Shown here in pieces: positions 11,035 through 61,440 of a stretch of 64,000 bases of DNA. The position numbers and the translations under genes are program-made. The notes beneath the pieces are model-generated. The model did no database searches. It worked only from the letters and a program-made list of their open reading frames with translations, and had not been told where the DNA came from. The stretch comes from Ligustrum vulgare. Taxonomy: Eukaryota; Streptophyta; Magnoliopsida; Lamiales; Oleaceae. Numbering within the stretch: the stretch's first letter is position 1; each line of letters begins with the position of its first letter. The stretch covers positions 26,498,639-26,562,638 of the forward strand of contig OY743184.1 of NCBI GenBank assembly GCA_963555705.1, read 5' to 3'.

Positions 11035-11040
11035 AATTTT

Positions 11041-11058
11041 TGGCGCCGTTGCCGGGGA
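11041..11058 (+). other. Primer-binding site complementary to tRNA-Asp
   Basis: TGGCGCCGTTGCCGGGGA lies 6 nt after the 5' LTR and matches the complement of the plant tRNA-Asp 3' end including CCA. This is the usual primer site of Athila/Tat-type gypsy elements. Confidence 0.9.
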
Positions 11059-11171
11059 CGGTTAACCAATTTAGTGTTTAATCAATTAGAATTTTATTTT
11101 TCTGCATTTATTTTATTTTTATTTTATTTTCTATTTTATTTATATAATTTTCCCAAAAAAAAAAATTATTT

Positions 11172-25472: not shown

Positions 25473-26154
25473 AATGACGGCAACGCCCAAAATTAAACTT
25501 TACACGTCATGCATAGGAGCCCACGTGGGACCCAATAGTTACCAGATGGACCCACCAACTTGCAAGTTATTGTGAGGCTGAGGCAGTATAGGGACCAAAC
25601 CACTTGCTGCCAAACTACTTGGTAATGTCATCCGAGGTATATGCCTAGAGACGGCGGCACAATTGGACAATTGTGTCAGTAAGATTGGACTTCGATGCAA
25701 GTTGTAACTTGATAGGAAAACACCTTTACTAGAGATGTGATGGTAGCCGTAACTCTACGGTAGGCTATAATGATTATGACCAATTAAATGGTTAATCTGA
25801 CCAGCGGCTAGGGCGAAACCACGTGTAAATTTGAACATGTGTCATGATCATAGGATATGATTCCAACTATAAATAAGACACATTAGGTTCCAAGAAAGAG
25901 GTTAGAAACTCAACAAATGAACTTGATATATAAAATCTCACTCCCTTTTCTCTATTTTACACACTTATATTTCCTACACCCAAATTATATTAACTTGAAA
26001 TTAGTACTGACTTAAGCATTGGAGAGCAAACAAGGGTCACCTCAGCCCCCTTTGCATACTGATTGTTTGTCCTAGTGCGCAGGGAGTCCACATGTTCAAG
26101 AGGGAGGAACTGGGAAGTGTTGATCTAAGGTCCTACTAGATTTTTTTGTCAACA
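25473..26154 (+). repeat. 5' LTR of the Tat element
   Basis: Matches 35957-36645 through most of its length (GGAGCCCACGT, TAGTTACCAGATGGA, CTCAGCCCCCTTTG). The first bases differ (AATGACGGCAACGCCC against TGTTACGACCACGCCC), so the start is fixed by the TSD. Ends TTGTCAACA. Confidence 0.85.
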
Positions 26155-26157
26155 TTT

Positions 26158-26175
26158 TGGCGCCCTTTGTGGGAA
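26158..26175 (+). other. Primer-binding site of the Tat element
   Basis: TGGCGCCCTTTGTGGGAA starts 3 nt after the LTR end. The TGGCGCC start is typical of this lineage. I do not assign the tRNA. Confidence 0.75.
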
Positions 26176-26229
26176 ATCACACCTTTAACCACGGAAAACC
26201 ACTTGGTAAAAAGCCATCAAGAACTTTGA

Positions 26230-26425
26230 AAAAGGCCAAGAACTTTGGAATATAAGTCCAGAAAATCCTGAAAAGGGGCTTTAAGCTTTGAAACATAAGT
26301 TTAACCACCTTGAAAAAGGTCTATAACTTTGAAACATAAGTTTACCTACCTTGTAAAAGGTCTATAACTTTGAAACATAACTTTACTCACCTTGAAAAAT
26401 GGTATATAACTTTGAAACAAAGGAT
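26230..26425 (+). repeat. 41-bp tandem repeats in the untranslated leader
   Basis: About four copies of a unit with CCTTGAAAAAGG and TATAACTTTGAAACATAAG; copies starting near 26311, 26352 and 26393 are each 41 bp apart. They lie between primer site and gag. Confidence 0.8.
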
Positions 26426-26446
26426 AATCATTTACTCATTGCAACA

Positions 26447-27640
26447 ATGAGTGAGAGTCATAATGATGCTAACCCTCAAAGGAGTCGAGAGGAACAGTAC
26501 GATGGTGGGGATACACATCAAGCAGACCAGTATGAGAACACCAACAAGGAGCTTGCACAACCTAATCCTCCTTATCGGCATCGAAATCGACGAATGTTGC
26601 AAGATATGATGTGCATGGCAACTCAAATGTTGGAGATGTAAAAGCAACAAATTGAGCAAACTACTGCCATGAATGCCTACATGGCAAGAGGATATGTGGG
26701 GAATGAACCAATGGCACCACCGTACTACTCGTAGCCACATTATTCACCCTCTAATGCGGGCACTGCATCGTAGTATTATAATGTACCACCAATGCATGCC
26801 GAGGTGGATTTTGTGCCTCGCAGCGAAGAGGACCCAGTGTATGCAGTACCGGAAGAGCACAACCATCAGCCTAAATACCATGAAGAAGCCACCCCCTCAA
26901 GCTCCGGCAGCATTTACAGCAAAAAAGGGGAATGTTCAGAGACAAGCGAGAAAGCAGGGCTGAACAAGCTCGACATCAGACACAAATGCCTAGGAATAGG
27001 CGTGAGCGAAGGGATGAAGAGGTCCTCTCTCGGGGTCACGTACCTAGAAATAGGTACGAGATGAGAATGGCAGAGCGGCACCCACCAACCCATGAGCTAG
27101 AAATAGATGGAAGAGAAGAGTCGCAGAGGCTCACTCTCAACCCCAAAGGGATCCGCCTAGCTATCAAAGGCCTAATTTCGGCTAGGCTTTATCACCTCGA
27201 GGGTGGAACCATGCCCAGCACCCCATGACCAATAACATGGTGCAGTGAACGTCGACCATGATGAAAGCAATGAGTTGTCGTCGTATGAATTAGATGATGA
27301 TGAGGAAATAAGCCCATTCACTGAAGGCATTCAGAGGTGTCTAGTACCCACCGATTTTGAAATGCCAGAGATAACAAAGTACTATGGGAGAGGTGACCCT
27401 GATGATCACCTACTGAACTACCATGCCAGTATGGAGATAGCCGAAGCTACTCTTGCACTAAAATGCAAAGCCTTCTCCTTAAGACTTGAGGGGAGTGCCA
27501 TACGGTGGTACAAAAAATTCCCTCCGGGCAGTATCCATGGTTGGAGAGGTATAAAAACAACATTTAAGAATGACTTTGTTTCCTCCACACGTACCATCGA
27601 TTTTTCGGACACGCTACAAAGGATTGCAGAGATATAAACA
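26447..27640 (+). pseudogene. Tat gag, decayed
   Basis: Starts MSESHNDANPQRSREEQ at 26447. A linker rich in Pro, Tyr and charged residues follows with several stops. The gag core is readable at 27245-27637: ITKYYGRGDPDDHLLNYHA, LKCKAFSLRLEGSAIRWYK, IKTTFKNDF. This is the retrotransposon gag fold of gypsy elements. A stop at 27635-27637 ends the frame; the C-terminal portion with a zinc knuckle is not recognisable. At least five stops or shifts. Confidence 0.85.
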
Positions 27641-27848
27641 TGTTGGCAGAATAGAAGGCCAATAAGAGAAGGGGAGGAAATAGTACCTCGAATAGAGGAA
27701 GGCTAAACAGGCCGAATGACCAAAGATTCAACCGAATTGAGCGAAGGGACAATAAGGTTACCCTCCCAGGGGAGGAACCAACAATCACTGTAGAGAGCAA
27801 GATCATGATAGAAATAAAGCTCCAGCGCTCGACAAGAAAGTCAGGGAA

Positions 27849-28702
27849 TTGCCCCATCCTCTGCATGATCTACCGATCCGTAAGATCGACAAAATATTTG
27901 GAGGGGCCCATCCAAGCGGGAGTACAAACAACTCCCAAAAGTGGTATATAAGGGAGGCCAAAGAGCCAGTTAATGTGAATTATCACATAAATTCACACCC
28001 CGTTGGGACCTCAAGGACAAATCCAATCACATTCACCCTGGACGATGCATTTCTCGCACAATGATGCGCTAGTGATTCATATGGTGGTAGCCGAAATGGA
28101 TTGTCCTGCATGCTGGTAGATGATAGTGACTCGATAAATATGATTTAAGGGGTAACCTATGATAAGATGGGAATTAGTATCCCACTTATTCCAGTCCCAA
28201 ACCCCATATACAGCTTTACCGGGGATAGTATCTTCCCCAGAGGGTCCATGATCTTTATAACTGAGGTGGGATAGGCACCTACCACTGCTAGGATACCAAT
28301 GGGATTCCTGATAGTAGATAAGACATCCTCCTGTAATGACTCAATTGGGAGACAGGACTTATCGAGTTGGGGACTGTCACTTACACGAAGTACATTTGCA
28401 TGAAGTTCTCAATTGAAAATGGGATAGCTACTATTAGGGGGAGCCAGACCGAATCACGATCATGCTATACAAATGATATTCGAAAGTTCCAAGATCGAAC
28501 TATCAACATTATTAGCGATATAGAGATGGCTGAGGCGATCTCACACCCTGAAAAATTGGGCACCGAACCTAATATAGATGGAGATGTCACAATGACGGAA
28601 GAAGATGATCTGGGGAATTTAGACCCCAGGATGACTAGTGCAAACTGTTGCATCGCTCCGGCTGAAAAGCTAGAATGCTTCTCTGTCGATCATCAAACCT
28701 GA
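27849..28702 (+). pseudogene. Tat protease region, decayed
   Basis: NPITFTLDDA precedes a retropepsin remnant CMLVDDSDSINMI near 28105, where the active site should read D-T-G-S-S; here it is D-D-S-D-S. VPNPIYSFTGDSIFPRGSM follows in another frame. The segment at 28367-28702 (FSIENGIATIRGSQTESRSCY) is the connecting region before RT. Stops and shifts throughout; not functional. Confidence 0.8.
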
Positions 28703-28739
28703 TGAAGGAATTCCAGATTGGGCAGAACTCAATGGTTGA

Positions 28740-29696
28740 ATTCAAGGGGCAGCTAAAAAGCTTCCTTCTCTAGAATCTCGACGTGTTCGCATGGAAACAA
28801 GACAACATGGTAGGAAAAGACCCCAAGGTAACTTGCCACAGACTCCAACTTGACCCAAGTCACCCCGGACATAGGCAGAAGATGAGACCTATGAGTCCAA
28901 AAAAATATGAAGCTTTGAAGGAGGAGGTGTTAAAGCTGTTGAAAAATACTTCATCAGGGAATCTCCTTATCCAAAGTGGTGTCCAAGCCTATACTTGTCC
29001 CCAAAGAAAATGGGAAGCTACGGGTATGCATCGATTTCTCGAACCGGAACCAAGCATGTCCAAAAGACAACTTTCCCTTACCCCGGATCTACCAACTAGT
29101 TGACTCCACGACGGGGCATGAAATGTTGAGCTTTATGGACGCATACTCCGGATATAATCAGATACCCATCCAAAAATCCGAAGAAGAGCACACCTCCTTT
29201 ATAACAGACAGGGGACTCTACTGTTATAGGGATATGCCCTTCAGGTTGAAAAACGCAGGAGCTACTTACCAAAGGTTGGTTAACCAGATGTTTTCGAAGC
29301 AACTCGGAAACACCATGGAAGTGTATGAAGCATGGTCTCTTCCAAGAATGTCCACCATTTGTCGGAGACCTTTGATACACTAAGGAAGTACCGGATGAAA
29401 CTCAACCCCATAAAATGTGCCTTCGGAGTAGCATCAGGTAAGTTTCTTGGTTTTATGGTGAACAGTAGGGGAATCGAAACCAATCAAGATAAAATCAAAG
29501 CTTTGCTTGACATGTGCTCTCCTCGAAGCCCCAAAGAAGTGCGAAGCTTAACTGGAAGAGTCATAGCATTGAGCAGATTCATATCCAAATCTACTATAAG
29601 TGCTTGCCTTTCGTTAAGGTATTGAAAGGAGGAAGAAGATTTCAATGGATGCAGGAATGCGAACGAGCCTTTACAGGGTTGAAGGAGTTTTTTTGA
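28740..29696 (+). pseudogene. Tat reverse transcriptase, catalytic YVDD deleted
   Basis: Two overlapping frames join FAWKQDNMVGKDP, PMSPKKYEALKEEVLKLLK, KENGKLRVCIDFSNRNQACP, SFMDAYSGYNQIPI, FITDRGLYCYRDMPF and LKNAGATYQRLVNQMF. After NTMEVY the expected VDD-MLVKS is replaced by a short out-of-frame segment; the next recognisable part is NVHHLSETFDTLRKYRMKLNP in another frame. So the metal-binding motif is lost by a small deletion. The thumb region KFLGFMVNSRGIE remains. Confidence 0.9.
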
Positions 29697-30511
29697 CAGG
29701 CCCCTCTACTATCCAAGCCCAAGGTCGAGCAGCTTGTGTTCCTATATTTGGCCGTCTCCAAAGAGGCTGTTAGCTCTGTCCTAGTTAGAGACAAAAATGG
29801 GAATCAAATTCCAGTGTACTATGTGAGCAAAGCATTGCTAGACTCTGAAACACGCTACCCTGACATGGAGAAGCTCGCCTTAGCTCTTATCACAGTGGCT
29901 CGTAAGCTCCGCTCCTATTTTCAATCATATTCCATCCGAATGCTTACAAATTTCCCCACGAAACAAGTGCTGCAGAAACTAGACGTATCCGAAAGGTTAA
30001 TGAAGTGGGCCATAAACGACCTGCAATATGTGCTTCGGACAGCAGTGAAGGGCTAGGCATTGGCAGATTTCATAGATGAGTTTACGCACCCACTGGAGTT
30101 GGAGATGATTGAAAATACAAGAGATACTCACAAATGTGGGCTATACATTGATGGATTTTCTACCAAAAGAAGGGCTGGTGTCGGTATAATAGTAATGAGA
30201 CTAGAAGGGTACAAACTGCATAGCGCAGTCTGCTTCGATTTTAGAGCTTTAAATAATGTGGCAGAATATGAAACCCTTTTAGTAGGAGTAAGGCTAGCAA
30301 TAGCTTTAAAGATCACATCATTGATAGTGAATAGTGATTCCCAACTCATTGTGAGCCAAGTCAATGGCCAGTTCGTCACCAAGGAGGCCGCAATGATCAC
30401 ATACTTGAAGAAAGTAAAAGATCTAGTAGCTCATTTTGAGAAATTTGAGTTGGTCCATATTCCTAAATTTGAAAATTTGAATGCATATGCTTTATCCAAA
30501 TTGGCAACTAG
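29697..30511 (+). pseudogene. Tat RNase H plus second, archaeal-type RNase H
   Basis: First domain: LYLAVSKEAVSSVLVRD, QIPVYYVSKALLDSETRYP and LALALITVARKLRSYF (29736-30000). After one stop (30054-30056) the second RNase H begins: LYIDGFSTKRRAGVGIIV, NNVAEYETLLVGVRLA and SDSQLIVSQVNGQF, with Asp, Glu and Asp catalytic positions present. This duplicated RNase H is diagnostic for Tat elements. The frame continues through 30851 without a break. Confidence 0.88.
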
Positions 30512-31765
30512 CAAAGAAGCCGAACTCCTCAACATGGTGCCCATTGAACATCTACCGGTCTCCTCTATTGATCCAGGGGAAGAAATATGTTCAATAGAAG
30601 AGGAAAGACCCATTATTGCTTACTTAAAGTATCAAACTCTACCAGTTGATCTGGACGAGGCTCAAAAATTACAAAGGTATGCAGCTACTTTTGTCCTCAT
30701 CAATGGGTTGCTCTATAAACGAAGTTACACTGAGCCTTTGTTACAATGCGTTTGTCCACCAGAAGGAAGGTACATAATGATGGAGATTCATGAGGGCATT
30801 TGTGGCAATCATGCCAAGGCATTATCCTTAGCTCAGAAAGCTCTGAAATAGGGGTACTTTTGGCCCACAATGTGGAAGGACATGTGTGACTTCGTCAGAA
30901 AGTACGATAAGTGTCAGAGGCATGCATCCATACCACACCGGCCACACCAAGAATTGAGAGTAGTGACCAACCTTTGGCCCTTTACAAAATGGGGAGTCGA
31001 TTGCTTCCAATTGTTGCGATTGACTACTTCACCAAATGGGTCTAGGGTAGAACCCTTGAAGAAAATTACTGAAGCAAACACTTCCAAATTTCTTTGGAAA
31101 AATATTATTTACAGGTTTGGGGTTCTACATTCGTTGGTGACAGTCAATGCAAAGCAGTTCAAAAACAGAAAAGTTGATGAGATGTGCGATGATTTGGGAA
31201 TTTGCAAATTATTCTCATCGCTGCACCATCCGCAAGAAAATGGGAAGGTCAAGGCAGTTAATAAAACCATCAAAAACACCTTGAAAAGGAAACTAGAATC
31301 AAAGAAGGGTGCTTGGGTAGATGAACTTCCCCAAGTCTTATGCCCACTTCAGACTACCTCTCACACATCGACTAGTGAGACCCCCTTCTCGATGGCTTAT
31401 GGATCCGAGGAAGTGTGCCCAGTGGAAATCAGAGTTCCCTCCCCTCGCCAAATTCACTATGACGAAGCCACAAATGAAGAAGCTCAAAGGGCAGATCCAG
31501 ATTTCCTCTTAGAAAGAAGAAATTACTCACAGGTTGTGTTGGCCCGCTACAGGAAAAGATGGCCCACTACTACAACAAGAAGGTAAAGAAATGGTTCTTC
31601 AGAATTGGGGATTTGGTCCTCAAAAAGGTCCTTCCCTCAACCCATGAACCGGGAGTAGGGACTCTAGGCCCTAATTGGGAGGGGCCTTATAAAGTTACTG
31701 CCGAGGTAATACCAGGGACTTACAAGATAGAAGACGTGTCTAGAGTACCCTTGCCTAATCCCTAG
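30512..31765 (+). pseudogene. Tat integrase, decayed
   Basis: HHCC zinc-binding region: IHEGICGNHAKALSLAQKAL, a stop (30849-30851), then YFWPTMWKDMCDFVRKYDKCQR. Core: WGVDCF retains the first Asp, but the second (normally in a TDNG motif) reads VTVNAKQF; HHPQENGKVKAVNKTI keeps the Glu region. The C-terminal GPY/F motif is present near 31670 (LGPNWEGPYKV). One shift at about 31555. No chromodomain is seen. Confidence 0.88.
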
Positions 31766-32399
31766 AACACTGACCACCTTTGTCGTTATTTTCAGTAAAG
31801 AAAGTTTCCCCTGGTTTGTGATATCTGCATCTGACTCTATGGAAATTATATAATAAAGAGCTTCCTTGTAAAAGTTCGCACCAAGCAAACTTACTAGAAT
31901 TGCCAGTTTAAACCAAAACAAATAGCTAAGGCATCTCAATGAAAAGGCTAATGTATTTGCCTCATCTAAATTATATATTTTCTTATGCCAAGCAACTAAC
32001 AATGAAATTATCAGATTATTTTGTTTAAAGTTTTTACACAAGGAACTCCCGTGAACCCGCGGGGTACTTAGGGCGCCTCGGTCGAATATGATAAGTTCCT
32101 TCTTTAGTTAAAGGAAGTGCTACGATTAATTTATGATTGAAATCTCTTTGAAAGAAAGTAAGAACGAACTCTTCGCATTACGCTTCCCGCAGTCAAAAGA
32201 GCCATGTTGATAAAATAAAACACACTTGGGACTATTGTGTAGCGAAGTTCAAACACTTATCGATCAGACCTAGCCAATGAACATGAATGCCTTAAACTGC
32301 CTTGGTCTGAGGGACTATCATACGAATCATACAAACAACAAAAACAAAATTAAAATTCCACATGTCATAAAAAAGTTATTACAAAATAGTTAGAAATCA

Positions 32400-35300
32400 A
32401 GGGAGAGGAGGAAGATCTCTGATTGAGCCATCTCCAGTAAAGTCTTGGGCTGAGTCGGCAGGGTCAGCATTAGGATTGCTCTCTTAAGCATCCCGTGGCT
32501 CCGGATAAAGAGCTTCTATATTGGATAGGTCGAGGTTGGGGAAAGCTTCCTTCATATCCCCTAAAGCCATTCTAGCTCAAATGTTTCCAAAAACCCTCTA
32601 CATGGCCCTAACTGCGATAGTCCGCTTCAGGGCCTCCTTAACCCGGGACTCTAAATGTCATTCTAAAGATGCGTAGTCCTCTTCAAACTTTTTCCTAGTC
32701 TCCACCTCTCTCTCCAATCTACCGATGACCTCTGTCACTTTGGCAGCTAGTTTGCTCTTTGTGGTGTTGGCTTCAGTTAGAGCTTCAGCAGTTATAGACT
32801 ACGCCCTGTTAGAATTATCAAGCTTTTTGCATAAGCTCGCCACATCAGCTTCAGAGGTACGGAGATTATGCCTTAACTTCTCATTGTCCTCTTGAAGGCA
32901 CTTGGAAAGAGCTCTTTCATCCGAGGAGGATTTGCGAGCTATGGATAGCTGATGCTTAAGAACATTTATCTCCTTCAGCATATTGTCGGCATGACGAAAC
33001 GTAGTCTCAGCATTCTTTTTTTCATGTTGCGCCTCCAAAATGGAGGATTCCACCTTGTCAATCAGAGTCAAGGCCCTAATGTTCATGGCTTTGGCAGCAA
33101 AGCAGTTTCCAGGCAGGAGGGACGCTAGAGGAAAAGATAGACCAGTCTTCAGTCCAAAACTGCTCCATAGCCAAGGAAGCTTTAGCAGGCAGAGACCTGG
33201 GAGAGTCGAACAAGCTGGGATCAAAGGTAAAATCCTTGGGAAGGACACTGGTTTTAATCTGCTGTACTACCCCAACCATGTCCTGAGTCACATCATAACC
33301 CACCCCTGGAATTGACAAAAAAGGCTCGCCTTCTTGCTCTTGCACTTCTGATGGTGGGGGTAGAGCAGCAGAACTGCGATCCTTACCCTTTTTTAGCCTC
33401 TTCAAAGGGGGAGGATCATCTTTAGAGACTGATTTAGAAATATAGTCGAAAATGGTATCCTTAATAAGGCCTTTTTTGGACCCCTTTTCTCCTTTGGCCC
33501 CGCCTCGTCAGACTTTTTCCCCTTTCCTATATCATGGACCTTCTTAGGGTCGACCCCTTCCCCAGAGTCTGGCTATTGTGGCCCAATTGGAAATAAGGTG
33601 GGAGGTGGTAAGAGCGCCAAAAGAGAACCCTCAAGTCAAGCAATGGATGCCTCGGATACCATCTTAACTGCTTCCACTTTAAGATTGGCGAGCACAGGCC
33701 TCTGCTTCCTTTCCACCACACTCCCTTGGCGGAGAGCAGAAGGGATTTTCTTTGACATTAGCCCCTTTAGGGAAATTTCATGGAAGTCTTTGGAATCTGA
33801 CAAAGGGGAGAGGAAGGTTAGTCCCAGGAAGCCAAACCTAAAGTAAAAGTCAAGGCAAAGAATCCAACTTACTCATAGCTCTCATAAGACCGTGCTTTAC
33901 GGAGAGCTTGTTCTGTTGGATGTCATGTTGGAAAGTGCCTCAGAAAGTAAAAAACTTCTTCATTGCTGGTAAATCTTCGTCAGAGAGCAGGGAAGTGAAG
34001 ATTTCCCTAAAATAGGAGGTAAAATGAAAATATGCGTTAGAGATAATGGACAAATATTATAAGCTATGCACTCACATCTGCAAATGGAAACAAAATAAAA
34101 GTCACGTAGAGAGGAAAGAGTTCAGGGAATGGTGATCTCAGGAGTAGGATCCATGGGTGAGCTCTTCCAACCCGCAGTGACTTAAAACCATTAGTTTCTC
34201 CAATATTTTATAGAAGTTGGGTGCTCAGTGATGATGGGGGGTGAGTACCTCTGGGATATAGATAGTACCAGTCCTTCACCTCTGATCTCACATCCTTATC
34301 CCTCCTAACAGATTTCTTTAAAATATACAAAGTGTGGATTATGTGTAGGGAGATGAGGTAGTCTAGATTGACTTCTTGCCACACTAACCAAGTACCCTCT
34401 GCTTGCGTCCAAAAGTTCGGAGCTAGGTGATAAGGACATAAGTTGTAGCTCCGAAGTAGGGCTCTGAAGAAAGGGTGTAAGGGGAGCCTCATCCCACACA
34501 CTAAGGCATCGTAACATATAGCCACTTGGCCTAGTGGTAGGCTGCAGGGTCGGCAAGATGGTGTGGGGTGCATTGGTCGAATGTCCTCCGGTAGTCTAAA
34601 TTTCGAAGGATCACCTACCAAATCGATCCCACGAATCTCATAATCAACTTCGTTCCTTTCCCATGATTCCGGGTTAGGTTCAGGGTCTACATGGTATCCC
34701 GACAACCTATTTACATAGTCAACCTATCCTTCGACTTGGGAGATTTCCTCCTCGGACAATCCAAGCTCCTCTCTATGTGCCCTAAACAGAGCCCTCACAG
34801 CCAAAACCAGAATCTTGTGGCTCAAATGAGGAGCTTCATGTCTCTTCTCTTTTCCGATCTCTATCACACTTACTTCAAAGTTCTCACAATGAAGCCTCCT
34901 CTTCAACGAAAAAATGAGCCATGTAGGGTTGGTTCTTTTCTTCTTCACTGTCAGAATCATCCAAATAGATTATACAACTGCATTTCCTATTCCTCCGCCT
35001 AACTCGCTCCTTGATAAAGCGGGAACTAAATACTGATTGAGACAGAGGGCAATAGCCTCTTATAGGAACCGCCATTACCACCAACTCTTGTGAACCCGTC
35101 CCCTCTACTCTTTCCATTTCTCCCAATTTCCAAACTTCCCCAAAAAGAAAAATGCGAGAAGAAAAAAGATATCTCAAACAAGCACTCACTAATTCAAAGC
35201 TACAATTAACAAGCATGCAAAGAAGGAAAAATTACCCGAGACAAGAGGTGATGAGAATCGGCGACCCTGAATTCAAAAGAAGGCAGCAACTTGGCGGAAA

Positions 35301-35405
35301 ACCTAGATGAAGAGATTCTCAAATAACGCATATAATATTCTCGGTGAAAGAAATTAGAAAGCCAACTTTCACGAGCTGACTTTGGGAAGATTTTTGGAGA
35401 TGTAA
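32400..35405 (-). pseudogene. Antisense gene in the Tat 3' region: plant-transposon-type protein with a long coiled coil
   Basis: Read on the minus strand: a leader and start MERVEGTGSQELV near 35117, an acidic stretch (LDDSDSEEEK), a region ending LSEEEISQVEG, then DYEIRGIDLVGDPSKFRLPEDI, ALVCGMRLPLHPFFRALL and LAPNFWTQAEGTW (34208-34705). The last set resembles the 'putative gypsy-type transposon' domain (PF04195-like) found antisense in some gypsy elements. Further down is a heptad-rich part (32799-33248: EAQHEKKNAETTFRHADNML, KSSSDERALSKCLQEDNEKL) and a C-terminal tail with AFPNLDLSN near 32530. Frames are broken by shifts, stops and possible introns. Function unknown; regulation by its own promoter is likely. 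Confidence 0.65.
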
Positions 35406-35433
35406 GAAAGGAGAAATGGTGAAGGGAAGAAAG

Positions 35434-35446
35434 CTTTATAGATAGG
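35434..35446 (-). promoter_or_regulatory. Likely TATA box of the antisense gene
   Basis: On the minus strand CCTATCTATAAAG is followed by a pyrimidine-rich leader (CTTTCTTCCCTTCACC). It lies about 320 nt before the candidate ATG. Confidence 0.5.
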
Positions 35447-35956
35447 CCCCCTTCATCTTGAAACTGAAAAGCTAATTCGACGGTACACATGTCCTAAAAT
35501 GGGAGTAAGGTTAAGCACCAAAGGTTTGAAATTCAGAAACAAAGGAATCTTCCTACTAATAAGGTGTATCTTACGCGTGGTATGGCGCATTCGCTTAAAA
35601 CATTCCTTGGAAATCAAAGCCAACTATTTTCTTGCCGTAAATGCGCCTCCCATAAAAGCATGCTAACATTTTGCAACGACTGAATTATAAAGGGAACAAG
35701 TCCAAAGGTCCAACTGTCACCTGTAAGAAATATAGTCAGCAGATAGAAAATCCTAAAATTCTGGAACGTTGCAACTGAACCAGCGCTGGGGTTGCCTCGG
35801 GTGCAAGAACAGGACCACTCCGGATGTGTTAGACTTTGCGCCACTCCATGAGAAAAACCATTATCTATCTTTATAACCTCACATTTAGTTCAGTTCAGCT
35901 CGCCTGTATCAAGTTCGGTACGCCCATAAATGACCCCATCAAACTTGAGGGACTAG

Positions 35957-36645
35957 TGTTACGACCACGCCCAAAATTAAACTTGACACGTCATGTATAG
36001 GAGCCCACGTAGGACCCAATAGTTACCAGATGGATCCACCATCTTGCAAGTTATTGTGAGGCCAAGGCAGTATGGGGACTGAACAACTTGTATTCGAGCT
36101 ACTTGTTTTGAGATAATGTCATCCGAGGTATATGCCTAGAGATAGCGGCACAGTTGAACAATTGTGTCAGTAGGATTGGACTTGTTTGCAAGTTGCAACT
36201 TGATAGGACAACACCTTTACTAGAGATGTGATGGTAGCCGTAACTCTACGATAGGGTGTAATGATTATGACCAATTAAATGGTTAATTTGACCAGCATCT
36301 AGGGAAAAGCCATTTGTAAAGTTGAACACGTGTTATGATCATAGGATATGATTCCAACTATAAATAAAACACATTTGGCTCCAAGAACGATGTTAGAAAC
36401 TCAACACTTGAACTTGATATATAAAATCTCAGTCCATTTTCTCTCTTTTACACACCTATATTTCCTGTACCCAAATTTTATAAACTTAAAATGAGTACTG
36501 ACTTAAGCATCCGAGTGCAAACGGGAGTCACCTCAGCCCCCTTTGTATACTGATTGTTTGTCCTAGTACGTAGGGAATCCACATGTTTAAGAGGGAGGAG
36601 TTGAGACATGTTGATTCAACGTCCTACCAGATTTTGTGGTCAGCA
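35957..36645 (+). repeat. 3' LTR of the Tat element
   Basis: Starts TGTTACGACCACG after a purine-rich AACTTGAGGGACTAG tract and ends GGTCAGCA, followed by the TSD ACTTT (36646-36650). A TATA-like ACTATAAATAAAAC lies near 36357. Confidence 0.88.
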
Positions 36646-42998: not shown

Positions 42999-43046
42999 AT
43001 AGTGTATGGAATACTATTTCCAAAAAACATGAATGCTTGTGGAAGG

Positions 43047-43797
43047 TGTTATGAAAATGTTGTTCAAATATATAAATAAAAGTTGAAAAGTGTGAGAACC
43101 GGTCCAATATATAAGGAACCGGTCCAATATATAAGGAACCGGTCCAAAAAGTGCAAAAACCGGACCAAATACAAATGGACGGACCAAATGGTCCGGACCG
43201 GACCTAAAGGTCCGGCCAGAATGAAGAACCACGCGATCGCGTGGTTAAGTGATTTATTCACTGCAGAAATTTTCGAGGCATCGCGCGATCGCGCGAGATT
43301 CATACCGGCGATCGCGTGGAGTTAAAATTCGACCGTTGGAGAAATTTTTCAGAATTTCTCAAGCACATTTTCAACCAATTTTGGCACTCTTTCGTGAAGA
43401 GTTGTATGAACAACGAATAGGGATGGTAGAATTCTATAAATAGGTATAGAATTCATGTTTTGAACAACTTTTGATTATCTAACCTTCAATAGTGATTATC
43501 ATCCAAAAGTTCCAAAATTTTATACTTAGAATCTTCAAAATTTGCTCTTCTTGTTCCTATTCTCCATATCAATTGTGCTATTTGATACTTGGTTTGAGGC
43601 TTGAAATCCGCTAAAGAAATTTGTTTGGAGGCCCTTTAGCATTCTCCTTTCGAGAGGGTGCAAATTTCGCTTTTAGGACAGCATTCTTTGCGATTCAAGT
43701 CAATTTGCAATATTTTGATTTCTTCTTGATTCTTTGTTTCAAGTTTTGTGTCAACTTCATTATAGCATATTTATTTGAGAAAGGAAATTTCTCAACA
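43047..43797 (+). repeat. 5' LTR of the copia element
   Basis: Contains a 20-bp tandem unit (GAACCGGTCCAATATATAAG, two copies near 43095-43140; one in the 3' LTR), palindromic CCACGCGATCGCGTGG (43229-43244) and GCGCGATCGCGC (43281-43292), a TATA box (CTATAAATAGG, 43433-43443), and AAATTTCGCTTTTAG (43662-43676). Confidence 0.95.
43662..43676 (+). promoter_or_regulatory. LTR segment complementary to the primer-site position
   Basis: AAATTTCGCTTTTAG is the exact reverse complement of 43800-43814. The 3' LTR keeps the same 15-mer at 48976-48990. Confidence 0.8.
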
Positions 43798-43799
43798 TT

Positions 43800-43814
43800 C
43801 TAAAAGCGAAATTT
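43800..43814 (+). other. Candidate self-primed primer-binding site
   Basis: CTAAAAGCGAAATTT starts two nt after the 5' LTR, where a tRNA-complementary site starting TGG is expected. It resembles no plant tRNA 3' end that I know. The gag ATG follows at 43821, so the leader after the LTR is only 23 nt. Confidence 0.6.
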
Positions 43815-43820
43815 TCTGCG

Positions 43821-46223
43821 ATGGCAACCGAAGGAGACACAACCATGGCTACAATCAAGTTAATGAATCAAGATTTTGTTCGCTTGGATCGTTTTGATGG
43901 TACCAACTTCACAAGGTGGCAAGACAAAATCAAGTTTCTACTAACGGCGCTAAAAATCTTCTACATCCTTGATCCCAATTTGGAAGACTTGCCCGAACCT
44001 TCCGAGAAAGATACCGAACAAGCAAGGATTGATCGAAAGAAGCGAGAAGAAGACGAACTTATTTGTCGTGGTCATATCTTGAATGCACTTTCGGATCGTC
44101 TCTACGACTTGTACACCAACACTAAATCTGCAAAAGAGATTTGGAATGCACTTGAAAACAAGTACAAGTCCGAAGAGGAAGGAACTACAAAATTCCTTAT
44201 AACAAGGTACTTTGATTTTAAATTTTTGGAAAATGTGCCCCTATTACCCCAAGTTCATGAATTACAAGTGATTGTCAATAAATTAAAAGCGGTGAAGATA
44301 GAACTTCCGGAATCATTTCAAGTAGGAGCAATTATTGCAAAATTGCCTTCTACTTGGAGAGGATATATGAAGAAAATCCTTCACAACTCCGAAGACTTTT
44401 CAATGGAGCAAATTCAAAAACATCTCCGAATTGAGGAAGAGTCGAGGGCAAGAGATGGGATTGAACATTCCCATGTTGGCACTTCTAAAGCCAATGCCTT
44501 GGAGAACAACAAAGTGACCAAAGTAAACAAAAGAAAGTTTACTAGCAACAACAACAACAAATTCAAAAAGAAGCCCAAGGGAGAATGCTTTGTATGTGGA
44601 AAATTCGGCCACTTTGCGAAAGATTGCCGACATAAAAAACAAAGCAATTTTGGAGGCAAGGTTAATTCCATTGACAAGAATGAAATTATTGCTACTATAA
44701 GTGAAGTGAATTCTGTCAAAGGAAAAATTCCGGGATGGCGGTATGATACATGCGCCACCGTTCATGTTTTCTATGACAAATCCTTATACAAGACCTATCA
44801 AGAGATTGATGATGGTCAACAAATTCAAATGGGAAATGACCATTGTTCAAAAGTCATAGGCAAAGGGAATGTTGATCTTCAATTCACACCCGGAAAGGTT
44901 GTAACTCTTACAAATGTCTTACATGTGCCGGATATGAATAGAAACCTTGTAAGTGGTGATTTGTTGGGAAAACCGGGCGTGAAATGTATTTTTGAGTCGG
45001 GAAAACTTGTATTGTCCCGAAATGGTTTCTTTGTTGGTAAAGGCTATTCCACTAATGGAATGGTCAAATTGTGTACTATTGACAATGCAATTAATAAAAT
45101 AAATTCTTCTTACTTTGTGTGTTCTTTAGATTTATGGCATGATAGATTAGGACATGTTGGATATTCTACTTTGCATAGAATGATTAGAAATGGCATGCTA
45201 TCTTGTGATTTTACAAAGTATGAAAAATGTGAAATTTGCACTAAGTCCAAAATGATTAAAAAATCTTTTCAAAGTGTAGTAAGATCATCTAATATTCTTG
45301 ACTTAGTTCATACCGACATTTGTGAACTTAATGGCATGTTAACTAGGGGTGGTAATAAATATTTTATCACTTTCATTGATGATTATTCTAGATTTTGTTA
45401 TGTTTATCTAATGAAACATAAAAATGAGGCTTTTCATATGTTTAAAGCATATAAAAATGAAGTAGAAAATCAAAAGGATAAAAGGATTAAAATTCTTAGA
45501 AGTGATAGAGGTGGTGAATATTTTTCTAAAGAATTTGATATCTTTTGTGAAGAACATGATATTTTACACCAATGTAGTGCACCTAGAACACCGGAACAAA
45601 ATGGCCTGGCGGAAAGGAAAAATAGAACCTTAGTTGAGATGATAAATGCTATGCTAACAAGGTCTAAATTGCCTAATTACTTATGGGGTGAGGCATTACT
45701 TACCGCGTGTCATATACATAATAGAATTCCTTCTAAGAAACTTAAAGTTTCACCTTATGAGTTGTGGAAAGGTCGGAAGCCTAACATTGGGTATTTTAAA
45801 GTGTGGGGGTGTTTGGCTTATTATAAAAACACCAATCCTAGTAAAACAAAACTAGGACCAAGAGGGATCAAGAGTGCCTTTGTTGGATATGCTATAAATA
45901 GTAAAGCATATAGGCTACTTGATCTAATATCCAATGTGATTATAGAATCACGAGATGTGGAATTTTTTGAGAATTCGTTAAGCGTTGATGATATTCCTCA
46001 AAATTCAAAAGAAATTCAAAATGAATTTCCGGCTTCTAAATCACTAGAAACATCTACCCAAGATGTAATTGAGACTAGTGAACCGCGAAGAAGCAAGAGA
46101 TCTCGTAAAGAGAAGGTATTAGGACATGATGAGATTGATTCTCAAAGGATCGCCTTTTACTTGATGAGATTGATTCTCAAAGGATCTCCTTTTACTTGGT
46201 TGAAGCAAGTAAGGAAGATATAG
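43821..46223 (+). pseudogene. Copia gag-protease-integrase frame, ended by a 35-bp duplication
   Basis: MATEGDTTMATIKLMNQDF starts at 43821. Domains: gag (FDGTNFTRWQDKIKF; IRIEE), zinc knuckle CFVCGKFGHFAKDC at about residues 256-269, protease with WRYDTCATVHVF (Cys where the active-site Gly usually stands), integrase HHCC (LWHDRLGHVGYSTLH, CEICTKSK) and core DLVHTDIC, RSDRGGEYFSKEF, PRTPEQNGLAERKNRT with D, D and E in place. A long hydrophilic linker follows. A 35-bp tandem duplication (46128-46162, 46163-46197) shifts the frame before RT, giving a stop at 46221-46223. Apart from that the 800 codons are open, so gag and integrase could still be made. Confidence 0.93.
46128..46197 (+). repeat. 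35-bp tandem duplication in pol
   Basis: Two copies starting GATGAGATTGATTCTCAAAG, differing by one base (GATCGCC against GATCTCC). 35 is not a multiple of three, so this is the frameshift that separates integrase from RT. Confidence 0.95.
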
Positions 46224-46936
46224 TAAGAATAATTCCATATGTTCTTCAAATTGATAGTGATCCTAAAACCTATAAAGAAGCAATGACTTCTAGAGATAGC
46301 ACATTTTGGAAGGATGTTATCGATGATGAAATGGATTCTATAACGTTCAACAACACTTGGAAGATTGTTGATTTACCGGCTGGATCAAAAGTCATTGGTT
46401 GCAAGTGGGTATTTCGAAGAAAATACAATACCGATGGTTCGATCCAAACCTATAAAGCAAGATTAGTTGCTAAAGGTTTTCGACAAAAGGAAGGAATTGA
46501 TTATTTTGACACTTATGCACCGGTGGATAGGATCACTACTATTAGAATACTATTTGCACTATCTTCTATATTTGATTTGCATGTGCATCAAATGGATGTG
46601 AAGACTGCATTTTTAAATGGAGAATTAGATGAAGAAGTTTACATGGAACAACCGGAATGTTTTGTTCTTCCGGGTAATGACAATAAAGTTTGTAAACTTA
46701 TTAAATCGCTATATGGTTTAAAACAAGCTCCTAAAAAATGGCATGAGAAATTTGATAATGCATTTATGTATTTTGGTTTTTCACATAATGTGGTAGATAA
46801 ATGTTTATATATTAAAAGTTGTGATAAACTTGTTACATTTGTGTGTTTGTATGTGGATGACATGTTGATTAAAAGTAATCACATGAATGGCATAAAAGAG
46901 AAACGAAGAGGTTTCTATAGTCAACATTCAATATGA
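46196..46936 (+). pseudogene. Copia reverse transcriptase
   Basis: Opens in the new frame at the end of the duplication. Motifs: WKDVIDDEMDSITFNNTW, GCKWVFRRKYNTDGSI, YKARLVAKGFRQKEGIDY, HQMDVKTAFLNGELDEEVYM, LYGLKQAPKKWHEKF and an intact YVDDM at about 46851-46865. After MNGIKE a one-base shift changes frame, and the correct frame also has a TAG (46917-46919) shortly after. Upstream the frame should join the gag-integrase part. Confidence 0.93.
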
Positions 46937-47802
46937 AAGATCTTGGTCAAGTGGATACCATATTGGGTATAAAAGTGATCAAGAATGAGTTGGGGTATGC
47001 ATTAACCCAATCACATTATATAGAGAATGTGATTGAAAAGTTCAAACATTTGAACATTAAAGAGGCAAATACTCCATTTGATTCAAGTATTAAACTTGTA
47101 AAGAATGTTGAAAGGGCTATTGGACAACTCGAATATGCGAGTGCAATTGGAAGTCTAATGTATGCAATTCAATGCACGAGACCGGATATTGCATTTGCCA
47201 TGAGTAAACTTAGTAGGTTTACTAGCAATCCAAGTGTTGAGCATTGGAAAGCGATTGGAAGAGTTCTTGGTTATCTAAAGAGAACTAAAAACCTTGGACT
47301 TCAATATTCCAAGTTTCCAGCAATATTAGAAGGATATACCGACGCAAGTTGGATATCAAATGCTGGAGAAAATAAATCAACCTCGGGATGGTTGTTTACA
47401 CTTGGAGGTGGTGCTGTTTCTTGGAGATCAAAGAAACAAACAATTATAACACATTCCAATATGGAATCCGAGTTTGTTGCATTAGCCGAAACTGGAAAGG
47501 AAGCAGAATGGCTTAAGGATCTTCTTTATGAAGTTCCATTGGATACGAAGAAGGAATCTTCAATATCTATACTATGTGATAGTCAAGCTACTCTAGCAAG
47601 GGCTTATAATGAAGTCTACAATGGAAAGTCAAGACATATGAGTCTTAGACATGATTATATAAGAAAATTAATAAAGGATGGAATAATATCACTTACCTAT
47701 GTGAGGTCAAGTGAAAATTTGGCTGATCCATTCACAAAACCACTTACCAAAGAGTTGGTAAGACAAACATCGAGTAGGATGGGGCTAAAACTCCTATTAT
47801 AA
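46933..47802 (+). pseudogene. Copia RNase H and pol C-terminus
   Basis: [15 protein letters not shown] is the usual RT-RNase H connection. RNase H motifs: [71 protein letters not shown]. Ends at 47802, normal for copia. No further lesion inside. The start Met here is internal to the original polyprotein. Confidence 0.93.
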
Positions 47803-48360
47803 ATTCACCAATGACGGAAACCCTACCTGTAATTATGAAATGAGTAATTCACGGGTTCAAAGGGTAACAAAAAGTCATTCGATAAGTGAATTGTTGCAGC
47901 ACTTAAAAATTATTTTAAGGCCCTATCCTAAGGATACAAGTGCTGGGGTAACTGTTTGGAGGGTTGAACAAATCTTTAAAAAATTCAGTAGTTAGTACAA
48001 GTGTCTTTAAAAGTTACCAAGACACTGTAAGAATTTCTCCTATATGAGCTTAGAAGTGGTGCCGCTTCAAGAAAAGTTTTGGAGTTACTTTCTGAAAAGT
48101 TCATGAACTCGGATGGACGCAAGGCCATTAACGCGTCAAAGTAAATCGTGTGGAACGTATTGAGCAAGAATGTTCACGTGTGCGATATCGCCGGTAATGT
48201 CATAAGTGATAACTGGTTCAAAGCCAAGGCTACCTGGGATCTCGATATTACTTTGCAATATTAGCACTAATATAAGGTTAAAATCGAAAGATACCTTATT
48301 TTATGCGTGACATCTTTTATAATTCTAAGTTGTGTTCATATATTTGAACAAGTGGGGGAT
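47803..48360 (+). other. 3' untranslated region and polypurine tract of the copia element
   Basis: About 560 bp with no coding frame, ending in CAAGTGGGGGAT directly before the 3' LTR. Several short repeats, no second gene. Confidence 0.75.
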
Positions 48361-49111
48361 TGTTATGAAAATGTTGTTCAAATATATAAAATAAAAGTTG
48401 AAAAGTGCGAGAACCGGTCCAATATATAAGGAACCGGTCCAAAAAGTGCAAAAACCGGACCAAATACAAATGGACGGACCAAATGGTCCAGACCGGACCT
48501 AAAGGTCCGGCCAGAATGAAGAACCACGCGATCGCGTGGTTGATGGTCCAGCGATCGCGTGGTTAAGTGATTTATTCACTGCAGAAATTTTCGAGGCATC
48601 GCGCGAGATTCATACCGGCGATCGCGTGGAGTTAAAATTCGACCGTTGGAGAAATTTTTCAGAATTTCTCAAGCACCTTTTCAACCAATTTTGGCACTCT
48701 TTCGTGAAGAGTTGCATGAACAACGAATAGGGATGATAGAATTCTATAAATAGGTATAGAATTCATGTTTTGAACAACTTTTGATTATCTAACCTTCAAT
48801 AGTGATTATCATCCAAAAGTTCCAAAATTTTATACTTAGAATCTTCAAAAATTGCTCTTCTTGTTCATATTCTCCAAGTTTATCAATTGTGCTATTTGAT
48901 ACTTGGTTTGAGGCTTGAAATCCGCTAAAGCAATTTGTTTGGAAACCCTTTAGCATTCTCATTTCGAGAGGGCGCAAATTTCGCTTTTAGGACAGCATTC
49001 TTTGCGATTCAAGTCAATTTGCAATATTTTGATTTCTTCTTGATTCTTTGTTTCAAGTTTTGTGTCAACTTCATTATAGCATATTTATTTGAGAAAGGAA
49101 ATTTCTCAACA
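48361..49111 (+). repeat. 3' LTR of the copia element
   Basis: Same length as the 5' LTR by compensating indels: one fewer GAACCGGTCCAATATATAAG unit and a rearranged palindrome area with CGCGATCGCGTGG twice in tandem (48526-48541, 48551-48563), while the GCGCGATCGCGC copy is lost. TATA box (48748-48758) and AAATTTCGCTTTTAG (48976-48990) kept. Confidence 0.95.
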
Positions 49112-50318
49112 GAAGGTTTCTAAGGATTTGTTTGGTATAATTAATTTACATCTCCCTTTGGACAGTCTTGTAAAATTTCAGTATTTGCATCTTACATAAT
49201 CACAAGATGAAGCTAGAATTTCAAATTTCACTTTCTAAACTTAGCACATAGTCAATCAGATGATGCTCTCTGAAATAAATACCAGATAATGCTCTAGTCA
49301 TTTGACACCTTAGGTTTTTGTGAATCTTTTTAAGAATAATGGATATAATCAAATATATGGATTCTAATAAGAAATAATTTTCCAAATTGGTGAAATGTAG
49401 ACATGAAGAAAATAGCAAATATTTTGCTAACGGCTCATCTGAGCCTTTTTCCTTCTGCTTTCTTCCCTTTTTTCTTCTTCTAATGAGAAAAATGGTTAGC
49501 TGTTTGAAAAATAGTGGGGATGCAAGGGGGAATTATCCCGGTCTGCATTAGGTGTAATGGTTGTATTTCTCCACCACACTTCATCTTGTCGAGTTTAAAC
49601 ATTGTCACATTCTCGCCCATTTCCCCATTTCTTCAATGTTTCTCCTGACTCTATAAAGTTATGTGAATTTGGGTATGTCAATTAGGTTCAACTCAACTAT
49701 TATATGCCACCTTTTCTCATTTAATAGTGGTTAAATGTATAAGATATGTGCTACATATGCATTTTCAATTTCAGTTGAAGTCCATGAGGCGTTTCTTAAT
49801 TTGCATATTAACTACCTTCACTGCAATTCACATGTCTATGGAATGTGATGATATGTTAAAAGGTTTATGAAAAAACATATGCAAAATGAGAGGATACAGT
49901 GGGATAATAAAATATATCTCTTCATATCTATGGCAGACAAAAGATTAAAAAAATTGTAATCATCTCTCTAATAAAGTTGTTGATCTTGAATTGGTCTAAA
50001 GATGTACCTGCTATTTGAAAAATAACCATTATTACATGTGGCTGATCAATCAAGTTAAATGTTTGTTGAAAATATGTCTAGGAGATCAAAGAAAAAATAT
50101 ATTTAAGAAAATGATATTCATAACATGGAAATACAGCAGAATTTCATAAAAATCCAATATCATCATAGTTACAAATTACTGCCTAGAACCTCCCTGCTTT
50201 TCACACACAGTATCCATCACCTTAATTGAAATCAATCCACTGCTACAGATCCATAAATTTAAAGAGAAAAGATATTGACTATGTCCGTCAAACTCTAACT
50301 ATTTTCTCACTCAGCCAT
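49112..50318. other. Non-coding host-like stretch
   Basis: Follows the copia TSD. AT-rich with no recognisable protein, TIRs or LTR ends. Probably intergenic. Confidence 0.35.
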
Positions 50319-55481: not shown

Positions 55482-55559
55482 AACACAATTATCTTATCTA
55501 CTATATATTATATTGAAACTAATATAATATTAAGTCAAAAACTCAAATTTTGACGTCAA

Positions 55560-56900
55560 AACCTCTCACCACCCCGCCCACCACCCCACCCACCCTACCC
55601 AAAAAATAATTTTTATTTTTTTTCCTTTCGATATTTTCCTATCATTCCCCATCTCACCCCCACCCCAACCCCACTCGACCCTACCCCACCTCATCGTAAA
55701 GTGACAAATTGATCTCACCCTAACCACACCCGATCCCACACACACACTGCTCACCCACCCCACATCACCACACATATCCTACCCCACCCCAAATATAAGT
55801 TTATTTTTATTTTTTCTCGATGTTTTCCTACACTTCCCCTTCCCACCCCACCCCAACCCAACCCCACTCGACCCTTCCCCACCTCATCGCAAAGTGACAA
55901 ATTGATCTCACCCTAACCATATCCCCCGATCCCACCAACCCACCCACCCTGCCTACCCACCCCACCTCACCACCCATATCCTACCCACCACAAAAAATAA
56001 GTTTATTTTTACTTTCTCTCAATGTTTTCCTATACTTCCCCATCTCACCCCAACCCAACCCCACCACACTCGACCCTACCCTACCCCACCCCACCCACCT
56101 CATCGAAAAGTGATAAATTGATCTCACCCTAGCCACATCCCCAGACCCCACCCACCCATCCTGCCCACCCACACCATCTCACCACCCATATTCTAACCCA
56201 CCCCAAAAATAAATTTATTTTTATTTTCTCCCGATGATTTCCTACGCTTCCCCATCCCACCCCCACCCCACCCCACCCCACTCCACCCCCACTCAACTCA
56301 ACCCCTACCCCACCTCATTGCAAAGTGACAAATTGATCTTATTACAGCCACAGATCACCACCCCACCCCACCCCCACCCACCCTATACCAAAAATAATTT
56401 TTACTTTTTTTCATTTCGATGTTTTCCTATCATTCCCAATCCCACCCCACCCTATCCTACCCTACCCTACCTCACATCATCTCAAAGTGACAAATTGATC
56501 TCACCCTAGTCAAATCCCTGACCCCACCCACCCACACACCCATATCCTATCCCACCCCAATAATAAGTTTATTTTTATTTTCTCTCGATATTTTCCTACA
56601 CTTCCCCATCCCACTCCACTCCACCCCATCCCAACCGGACCTAACCCCACTCGACCTTGCCCTACCCCATCTCATCGCAAGGTGACAAATTGATCTCACC
56701 CTAACCACATACCCCGACCCCACCCACTTCACCACCCATATCCTACCCACCCCAAAAATAAGTTTATTTTTATATTCTCCCAATGTTTTCCTACACTTTC
56801 CCATCCCACTCCACCCCACCCTACCCCAACCCAACCCCACTCCACTTGACCCTACATCATCTTATCGCAAAGTGACAAATTGATCTTATCCCAACCACAG
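55560..56900. repeat. C-rich array with seven units of about 160-216 bp, left arm only
   Basis: The phrase GTGACAAATTGATCTCACC(C) occurs at 55701, 55894, 56110, 56325, 56487, 56682 and 56872, spaced 193, 216, 215, 162, 195 and 190 bp. Between them are CCCCACCC runs and AAAAATAAGTTTATTTTTATTT. This unit is absent from the right arm. Confidence 0.9.
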
Positions 56901-57715
56901 ACCATGACACACCTCTCCGCGCTCACCCACCCTATCCCACCCCATCGCAAAAATGATTTTTTTCCTTATACTTTTCCACCTACCCCCACCCAGCCTGACA
57001 CCACCCTACCGATCCCACCTCACCCCAAAAATGATTTTTTTCTTCTATATTTTCATGCCCCCACCAACCCCATCCCCAACACCACCCTGACCACCCCACA
57101 AAATGAGTTTTTTTTTTTTATCTCTCCATATTTTCCCACCCTACCCCGCTACCCACCACACCCAAAAATGATTTTTTTCTTCTAATTTTTCACACCCACC
57201 ACGCACCGACCCTACCATCTATCCACCCAACCAATCGACCCAACCACACCAAAAAATGATTTTTTTCTTCCACTTTTTTCACACTCCACCCAGACCCTAC
57301 CCTTGCACCCACCCCACTCCACCATACCCACCCATCCCATTCTTACCCACCATCAGAAAATGATTTTTCTCCTTCAATTTTTCACACCCTCACCCACCTC
57401 GCTCCCACCCCACCCGCCATGCACTCAACCAAATGACCCCACCCAAAAATGATTTTTTTCTACTTTCCACACCCCGTCCCGACCCTATGCCGTCACCCAA
57501 CAACCTCACCACTATCCACCCCACCTTAAAATGATTTTTTTCTACTTTTTCACACTCCGTCCCGACCCTACACCTGTCACCCACCAACCCCACCCCTACC
57601 CAAAAATGATTTTTCTTTTTCTAATTTTCCACACCCCGTCCCTACCCGCCACCCACCCAACAAACCGACCCTACCCAAAAATGATTTTTTTCTTATACTT
57701 TTCCTCGTCCAATGG
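56900..57715. repeat. C-rich array with AAAAATGATTTTTTTCTTC units, left arm
   Basis: About ten units with AAAAATGATTTTTTTCTTC followed by CCACCC-rich sequence, about 70-105 bp apart. The right arm has the reverse complement (GAAGAAAAATCATTTTT). Confidence 0.9.
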
Positions 57716-60064: not shown

Positions 60065-61440
60065 CTTTGGGGTGGTGATGGTGGGGTAGAGGTCGGGTGG
60101 GGGTAGAAAAATTAGAAGAAATCATTTTTGTGGTGAGGTGGGGTCGGGGTGGGTGGGTGGGGTCGGGGTTGGAAAATCAGAAGAATAAAATCATTTTTTT
60201 GGGGTGGGTGGGGGTAGGGTAGGGTAGGGATAAAGTAGAAGAAAAAAATCGATTTTTGGAGTGGGGTGGGTGGGTAGGGTGGGGTCGAGGTTGGGTTGGG
60301 GGTTGAAAAAGTAGAAGAAAAAAAATTATTTTTGGATGGGTGGGTGGGTGGGTGGGTGCGTGGGGGGGTTGGGGTAGGGAGGGTTGAAATGGGGTGGTTG
60401 GGGTAATGTGTGAAAAAATAGAAGAAAAATAATTTTTTGATGAGGTATGGTGGGTGGCGGGGTGCGGTGGGATGGGGGTGGGGCGGTTGGGGGGAAGTGG
60501 GAAAAATTAGAAGAAAAATCATTTTAGGTGGGGTGTAAAAAATAGAAGAAAAATCATTTTTCGAAGGGGCTAGTGTGGGTGGGGTGCGGGGGGATAGGAT
60601 GGGCGGTTGAGGTGAAGTGCGAAAAAATAGAAGAAAAATCATTTTTGGGTGGGGTGGGGTGTAAAAATATAGAAGAAAAATCATATTTAGGGGGGTGGGT
60701 GGGTTGCAAGGTAGGGTCGGGACGGGATGCGTGGGGGTGTGGAAAATTAGGAGAAAAAATTTAATTTTGGGTGGGGTGGGGATTGGGTGACGGGGTAGGG
60801 TCTGGCGAGTCGTGGAAAAGTAGTGGAAAAATATCATTTTGGATGAGGTGGGTTGGGATAGGGTTTGGGGCGAGGTTAGTGAGGGAGTCGAAAATTAGAA
60901 GAAAAAAATTAATTTTTGGTGATGTTGGGTTGGGTTGAGTTGGGGTAGGTGGCGGGGTAGGATAGGGTAGGGTCGGGCGAATTGTGGAAAAGTAGTAGAA
61001 AAAATCATTTTGCGTGAGGTGGGTGGGGTAGGGTAGGGTCGGGATGGGATGGGTGCGGTGGGGAAGGGTGGGAAAACATCTAAAAAAAAACTTATTTTTG
61101 TGGTGGGGTGAGGTGGGAGGGGTTGGGTGGGGGTGGGATGGGATGAGACTGGTGGGTGGGTGGGTGAGATGAGATGAGAAAAATAGAAGTAAAATCATTC
61201 TTGTGGTGTGGTGGGGTTGAGTGGGTGGGTGGGTGGGGTTGGGGAGGAGTGGGGGTGGGGTGTGTAAGGTGATGTCCGGGGTGGGAATGAGTTTGGAAAA
61301 GTAGAAGGAAAAATGTCATTTTTTGAGGTGGATGGGGTGGGTTGGGTTGGGTTGTTGAGATGGGGTTGGGTGAGTGCGGGGTTGAGTTGGATTGGATTAG
61401 ATTGGGTTGTGTTGGGTTGGGTTGGGTTGGTGTGGAGTGG
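60065..61440. repeat. G-rich array, right arm
   Basis: About fifteen units with AGAAGAAAAATCATTTTTGG followed by GGGTGGGG-type sequence. Includes GGGTGGGTGGGTGGGTGGG-like runs near 60338-60358 and near 61220. Strong strand asymmetry: almost no C on the plus strand. Confidence 0.92.

Follow-up and report, generated by a model that had tools for sequence, protein, structure and literature searches.

Probable self-priming in a Ty1/copia retrotransposon of Ligustrum vulgare whose primer site is complementary to its own LTR

The window, a stretch of 64,000 nucleotides of Ligustrum vulgare DNA, contains a plant Ty1/copia retrotransposon (Table 1). Its 751-bp long terminal repeats (LTRs) have TG...CA ends, and the duplication GAAGG is present on both sides. 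The domain order is that of Ty1/copia, with matches to PF14223, PF00665 and PF07727; the RNase H region was identified solely by its similarity to polyprotein ends, as a Pfam RNase H match is absent. Because gag-integrase, reverse transcriptase and the reverse transcriptase end with RNase H are distributed over three open reading frames, this copy is broken in two places. The alignment of its two LTRs shows 12 substitutions over 723 aligned bases, plus five indels, so the copy is fairly young. A 14-bp inverted repeat (48338–48351 and 48374–48387) would form a predicted hairpin whose loop holds the polypurine tract together with the beginning of the 3' LTR (z score −2.6; 2 of 200 shuffled sequences folded equally well).

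Table 1. Features of the copia element and its surroundings (positions in the window)
Feature	Position	Strand	Remark
Ty1/copia element	43047–49111		6.1 kb
Target-site duplication GAAGG, left copy	43042–43046		directly before TGTTATG
5' LTR, 751 bp	43047–43797	+	TG...CA (TGTTATG...CTCAACA); aligned to 48361–49111
TATA-like box CTATAAATAG	43434–43443	+	read by eye
Predicted hairpin directly 5' of the primer segment	43639–43661	+	stretch 43639–43700, z −1.6, weak
Predicted self-primer segment AAATTTCGCTTTTAG in the 5' LTR	43662–43676	+	
Hairpin at the 3' end of the LTR, 8 bp	43775–43795	+	TTGAGAAA/TTTCTCAA; resembles a U5 hairpin
Spacer TT (2 nt), LTR to primer site	43798–43799	+	
Presumed primer-binding site CTAAAAGCGAAATTT	43800–43814	+	perfect complement of 43662–43676
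ORF 1	43821–46223	+	gag (PF14223), CCHC knuckle, Pol beta-barrel domain, gag_pre-integrs, integrase core, SH3-like domain
Tandem duplication, 35 bp	46127–46198	+	at the first reading-frame break
Reverse transcriptase ORF	46196–46936	+	RVT_2
Reverse transcriptase end and RNase H region	46933–47802	+	after the second frame break
Polypurine tract AAGTGGGGG	48350–48358	+	followed by 2-nt spacer AT, then 3' LTR; sequence inspection
3' LTR	48361–49111	+	aligned to the 5' LTR
15-mer AAATTTCGCTTTTAG, 3' LTR copy	48976–48990	+	
Target-site duplication GAAGG, right copy	49112–49116		

Other repeats occupy further parts of the window. A gypsy-type LTR element with 98% identical LTRs lies at 9697–17102 and carries a TGGCGCCGTTGCC primer site 5 nt past its 5' LTR, and a second LTR-like pair, 87% identical, lies at 25477–36645 with a TGGCGCCC site 3 nt past the left copy. 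Further copia remnants are found at 3–1397, 18820–19031 and 63376–63582, and the longer matches among them are 36–48% identical to the element at 43047–49111. Two tandem arrays, C-rich at 55555–57700 and G-rich at 60091–61430, flank a region of ~21-bp repeats (about 57.7–60.0 kb) in what looks like a large inverted arrangement. At gathering scores, Rfam gave no matches within the 64-kb window.

The presumed primer site of the copia element starts where minus-strand DNA is expected to start. An earlier note on this DNA had described the 15 nt that begin 2 nt past the 5' LTR as the exact reverse complement of a segment of the same LTR, with the 15-mer also intact in the 3' LTR, and both observations were confirmed. 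The sequence AAATTTCGCTTTTAG matches at 43662–43676 and 48976–48990 on the forward strand and at 43800–43814 on the reverse strand, and no further copies with up to two mismatches were found elsewhere in the window. The RNA helix between 43662–43678 and 43798–43814 comprises 17 bp, since the TT spacer contributes one G-U pair and one A-U pair (with G43677 and A43678), and it stops at the LTR boundary. Spacers of 2 nt are present on both sides, TT after the 5' LTR and AT between the polypurine tract and the 3' LTR. The proposed geometry, in which the 3' end of the primer is directed toward U5, holds and is strengthened by this 2-nt spacing at both LTR ends. The identity of the 15-mer between the LTRs is little informative, since about 0.25 substitutions are expected in 15 nt. 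None of the 12 inter-LTR substitutions falls within 43662–43797, which is unconvincing (P = 0.08). Five of the 12 lie within 43617–43659, a 43-nt stretch immediately 5' of that segment.

Chance complementarity within an AT-rich leader is an extremely improbable source of the match. The longest self-match beginning 0–5 nt past the LTR is 15 nt, but the maximum in 20,000 base-shuffled leaders was 13 nt, and none reached 14 nt. Among 4,543 internal positions of the element a 15-nt match occurs only at the site itself (0 of the other 4,542). Inverted repeats of this length do exist in the window: a 15-nt complement no more than 751 nt upstream is found outside the element at three places among 57,039 positions, and when the LTR ends are slid across the window, 32 of 57,019 positions reach at least 15 nt, which for the window as a whole gives a rate above zero, of about 6 in 10,000. 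The three places, however, consist of one (TA)n run and two places in an array of diverged ~21-bp repeats. The element at 9697–17102 and the LTR pair at 25477–36645 (ends defined by BLAST) gave self-matches of 7 and 6 nt, and a third control, the copia element L006, one of 6 nt. The earlier judgement that a 15-mer match at this place is unlikely to be accidental is borne out by these controls.

Priming by a cleaved host tRNA, whose anticodon region would pair with the site as reported for Bianca and Osser, is less far-fetched than chance and still very unlikely. Such priming exists in plant copia elements (PMC6317226), and TAAAAGC in the site is complementary to GCTTTTA of the anticodon arm of tRNA-Lys(UUU). 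The site was compared with 18 plant tRNAs, an incomplete set, and the longest contiguous match was 7 nt, against 15 nt (17 with wobble) for the LTR. The matches were 5 nt for initiator tRNA-Met, 6 nt for tRNA-Ile and 7 nt for both tRNA-Lys(UUU) and tRNA-Pro. Neither the tRNA-Met 3'-end site with a TGG start that is typical of other angiosperm copia elements nor a half-tRNA-Ile site of the Bianca type is present. A TGG-starting site is absent from the primer position, as had been noted before; downstream of the 5' LTR, TGG does not occur until 24 nt past the LTR end, at the start of gag. The predicted duplex energy is −18.9 kcal/mol for the LTR 17-mer (−22.0 with flanks) versus −17.4 kcal/mol for the best of the 18 tRNAs, a gap that is smaller than that in match length because a long tRNA pairs in scattered pieces. 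In the same comparison, TGG-type sites were found at +5 and +3 of the control LTRs 9697–11035 and 25477–26154, and in L006 13 nt right after the apparent LTR proved complementary to initiator tRNA-Met in its anticodon region, indicating that the comparison detects both complete and half-tRNA sites. The published half-tRNA lineages, moreover, are other ones (PMC6317226). Complete-tRNA and half-tRNA priming were rejected as the main explanation on these grounds. The question raised by the earlier note, whether a tRNA fits the site better than the LTR does, is thus answered in favour of the LTR across the 18 tRNAs compared.

The L006 contig comes from an Aquimarina assembly and probably represents contamination; at 319–640 it has an apparent LTR (TGTTGG...ACAACA) directly followed by GGTTATGGGCCCA, a site of the half-tRNA-Met type.

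RNA folding was examined with different 5' ends. The TATA-like box predicts an RNA start near 43465, some 200 nt 5' of the primer segment, in agreement with a caveat raised in the earlier note. From this start the pairing probability of the primer site with the segment was at most 0.001 for RNAs ending at 43870, 44100, 44300 or 44500, because the segment pairs partly with 43624–43631. Starts at 43500, 43540 and 43560 gave 0.000–0.014, and a start at 43655 gave 0.375. The probability was 0.95–0.96 in RNAs 43625–43870, 43640–43870 and 43662–43870, and 0.86 in RNA 43595–43830, which has a shorter downstream end than the others. Folds from 43465 hide the segment, so that its use would need an internal cut, chaperoning by nucleocapsid, another start or a shorter RNA, or a second RNA. 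In stability the folds of the leader are unexceptional (z −1.57 and −0.82). The hairpin at the 3' end of the LTR sits 2 nt before the primer-site helix. A site-like sequence at 43611–43622 was considered as a primer decoy and rejected, its local fold being no better than shuffles (z 0.09).

In retroviruses, U5 and the leader pair near the primer site. The 15-nt pairing could by analogy be a structural leader helix, serving packaging, dimerisation or a U5-leader stem while a different primer is used, and its folding in cis in the shortened RNAs would fit such a role. The helix, however, occupies the very place that a primer requires, from 2 nt past the LTR, and neither the 18 tRNAs compared nor the scan for TGG revealed a tRNA-type site at the primer position. 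We regard a purely structural helix as unlikely, though as the least unlikely of the three alternatives.

Self-priming, in which reverse transcription is started by a primer cut from the element's own RNA and not by a tRNA, is the probable reading of this locus. It is favoured by the exact 15-nt complement at 2 nt past the LTR in combination with the lack of a TGG-type site and the intact 15-mer in both LTRs. The cleavage of the primer and its use are inferred steps. The RNA segment 43662–43676, probably with some 5' sequence left, would anneal to 43800–43814. An endonuclease would cut after G43676; the most plausible candidate is the RNase H of the element itself, which would attack the RNA duplex as in Tf1. 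The new 3' end would then be extended from 43799 into U5. The resulting cDNA would extend 2 nt past the LTR, in agreement with the 2-nt spacer next to the polypurine tract, and two nucleotides would be removed from either end by integrase. Plus-strand synthesis that copies the primer would rewrite the site from the LTR sequence, and for this reason the two 15-mers would stay matched.

Self-priming in plant copia elements is not new. The earlier note had treated it as unfamiliar in this group, which does not stand, as it is already in print for TAR and for Houba and Osr-1. According to Neumann et al. 2019 (PMC6317226), 12% of plant LTR retrotransposons are predicted to self-prime, the lineages concerned being Tcn1 (gypsy) and TAR (Ty1/copia); the authors also mention that this had been proposed before for Houba and Osr-1. 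They call a self-primer when at least 10 bp complementary to the 5' LTR start 0–5 bp past it. In the same source the primer is half tRNA-Ile in Bianca, half tRNA-Met in Osser, Bryco and part of Gymco-II, and tRNA-Met in most elements of the other copia groups. With 15 bp at +2 the element lies within the published thresholds for a TAR self-primer, so TAR, for which this priming mode has already been predicted, is its likely lineage; the placement rests on the published primer-site key and not on a labelled tree. The present element adds a case to that prediction. The literature searched, which includes few subscription papers, yielded no plant copia element whose primer has been mapped, and the predictions found there come from complementarity.

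The element resembles TAR (REXdb; rice Houba and Osr-1) in its copia order, with integrase before reverse transcriptase, and in its self-primer, since 10 nt or more of the 5' LTR are complementary to a site 0–5 nt past the LTR and no tRNA site was found. Its size (6.1 kb with 751-bp LTRs) is similar to that of Houba (6437 with 968) and Osr1 (6400 with 965). It differs from the rice proteins compared, P0176 and P0177, which are 56–57% identical to it in the reverse transcriptase. Bianca likewise is a copia element without a complete-tRNA site, but it has two ORFs split by a spacer and uses half tRNA-Ile (PMC6317226), whereas here gag and integrase share one ORF and the match to tRNA-Ile is 6 nt.

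Outside plants, the closest parallel is with the Tf1/Sushi elements, S. pombe Tf1 and S. japonicus Tj1, whose site is complementary to the 5' region of their own RNA and which use no tRNA (PMC7175516, PMC4600332). In both cases the cut end would point into U5. Tf1 primes with the first 11 nt of its own RNA, and titles cited in PMC7175516 indicate that it depends on a stem-loop of the U5-IR type and on the cutting of an RNA duplex by RNase H. These elements are Ty3/gypsy, whereas the element at 43047–49111 lacks the gypsy polyprotein order. The comparison with Tf1 made in the earlier note stands for the geometry of the cut end and would not extend to the position of the complement, which in Tf1 is 11 nt at the RNA 5' end and here is 15 nt about 200 nt inside the predicted RNA, left unpaired with the site in folds from the TATA-predicted start. 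The GalEa copia elements of fungi are also without a tRNA site, but they have a palindromic hairpin at the site, and their authors report finding no LTR complement (PMC5445492).

A mechanism peculiar to plant copia elements and different from that of Tf1 is put forward tentatively and with less than even confidence. The 15-nt primer, about 200 nt inside the RNA, would at first be hidden within a folded part of the leader and would then be freed by an internal cut or be supplied by a second packaged RNA. With an internal primer segment, the repeat effective in strand transfer would start at 43677 instead of at the 5' end of the RNA.

If the element is self-primed, the positions to be tested are a cut after 43676 and a cDNA start at 43799; if the cut occurs in cis, the cDNA would end at 43677, and the poly(A) site would lie downstream of 48990. 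In mammals, 3' tRNA fragments silence tRNA-primed elements at the primer site (PMC7472051). Where an element primes itself, its primer site has no need of a tRNA and such fragments find no target there; extended from mammals to plants, this would suggest an escape from that form of silencing.

Relatives of the element were collected in three protein searches, of which the best 120 of 276, 286 and 199 matches were considered, at least 300 different proteins in total. Among the matches listed, the best seven for ORF 1 (P0001–P0007) are 65–73% identical over 77–98% of the ORF, and those with names include proteins from grapevine, citrus, banana, sunflower and other Asteraceae, and beech. No protein labelled Fourf, Houba or TAR is among the matches listed, in which names are abbreviated. 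The reverse transcriptase tree, with 32 rows and no lineage labels, joins the element to P0015, P0001 and P0003 (100/99), and with midpoint rooting the rice proteins fall in a different part of the tree. The rice relatives include large clusters (P0187 with 47 members, P0222 with 51), which at a guess would suit the abundant Houba/Osr1 families.

A search of viral_contigs with gag and reverse transcriptase pieces and a 12-protein alignment gave no DNA relatives, the genome of the window itself possibly being absent from that set. In genome_contigs, seven copia contigs were found in bacterial assemblies, 33–48% identical to the element. The 5' ends of L001, L002 and L006 were inspected, and repeats were sought in five of the seven (without L003 and L007); by identity, none of the contigs inspected belongs to the family of the element.

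Protein sequences were also read upstream of gag. Of 300 proteins listed, 54 have long upstream extensions, none of which fits an initiator-tRNA-Met site. P0002, P0021 and P0050, relatives within the wider clade of the element, were used for the reading, after P0024, P0047 and P0068 of that clade had been dropped as likely gene-model fusions and the rest as members of other clades. Upstream of gag these three can encode neither an initiator-tRNA-Met site nor the CTAAAAGCGAAATTT 15-mer, which suggests that the primer site varies between families, as a self-primer may. The test is weak, because it reads proteins and not DNA, three likely fusions were dropped and the 54 extended proteins contain no positive. 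When the 15-mer was sought in the first 200 residues of 300 listed proteins, one match was obtained, at residue 154 of P0215, which we read as lying inside gag. Many proteins of the group formed by P0176 and related rice and grass sequences have a long N-terminal extension of gag, possibly reflecting a leader intron or gene-model noise.
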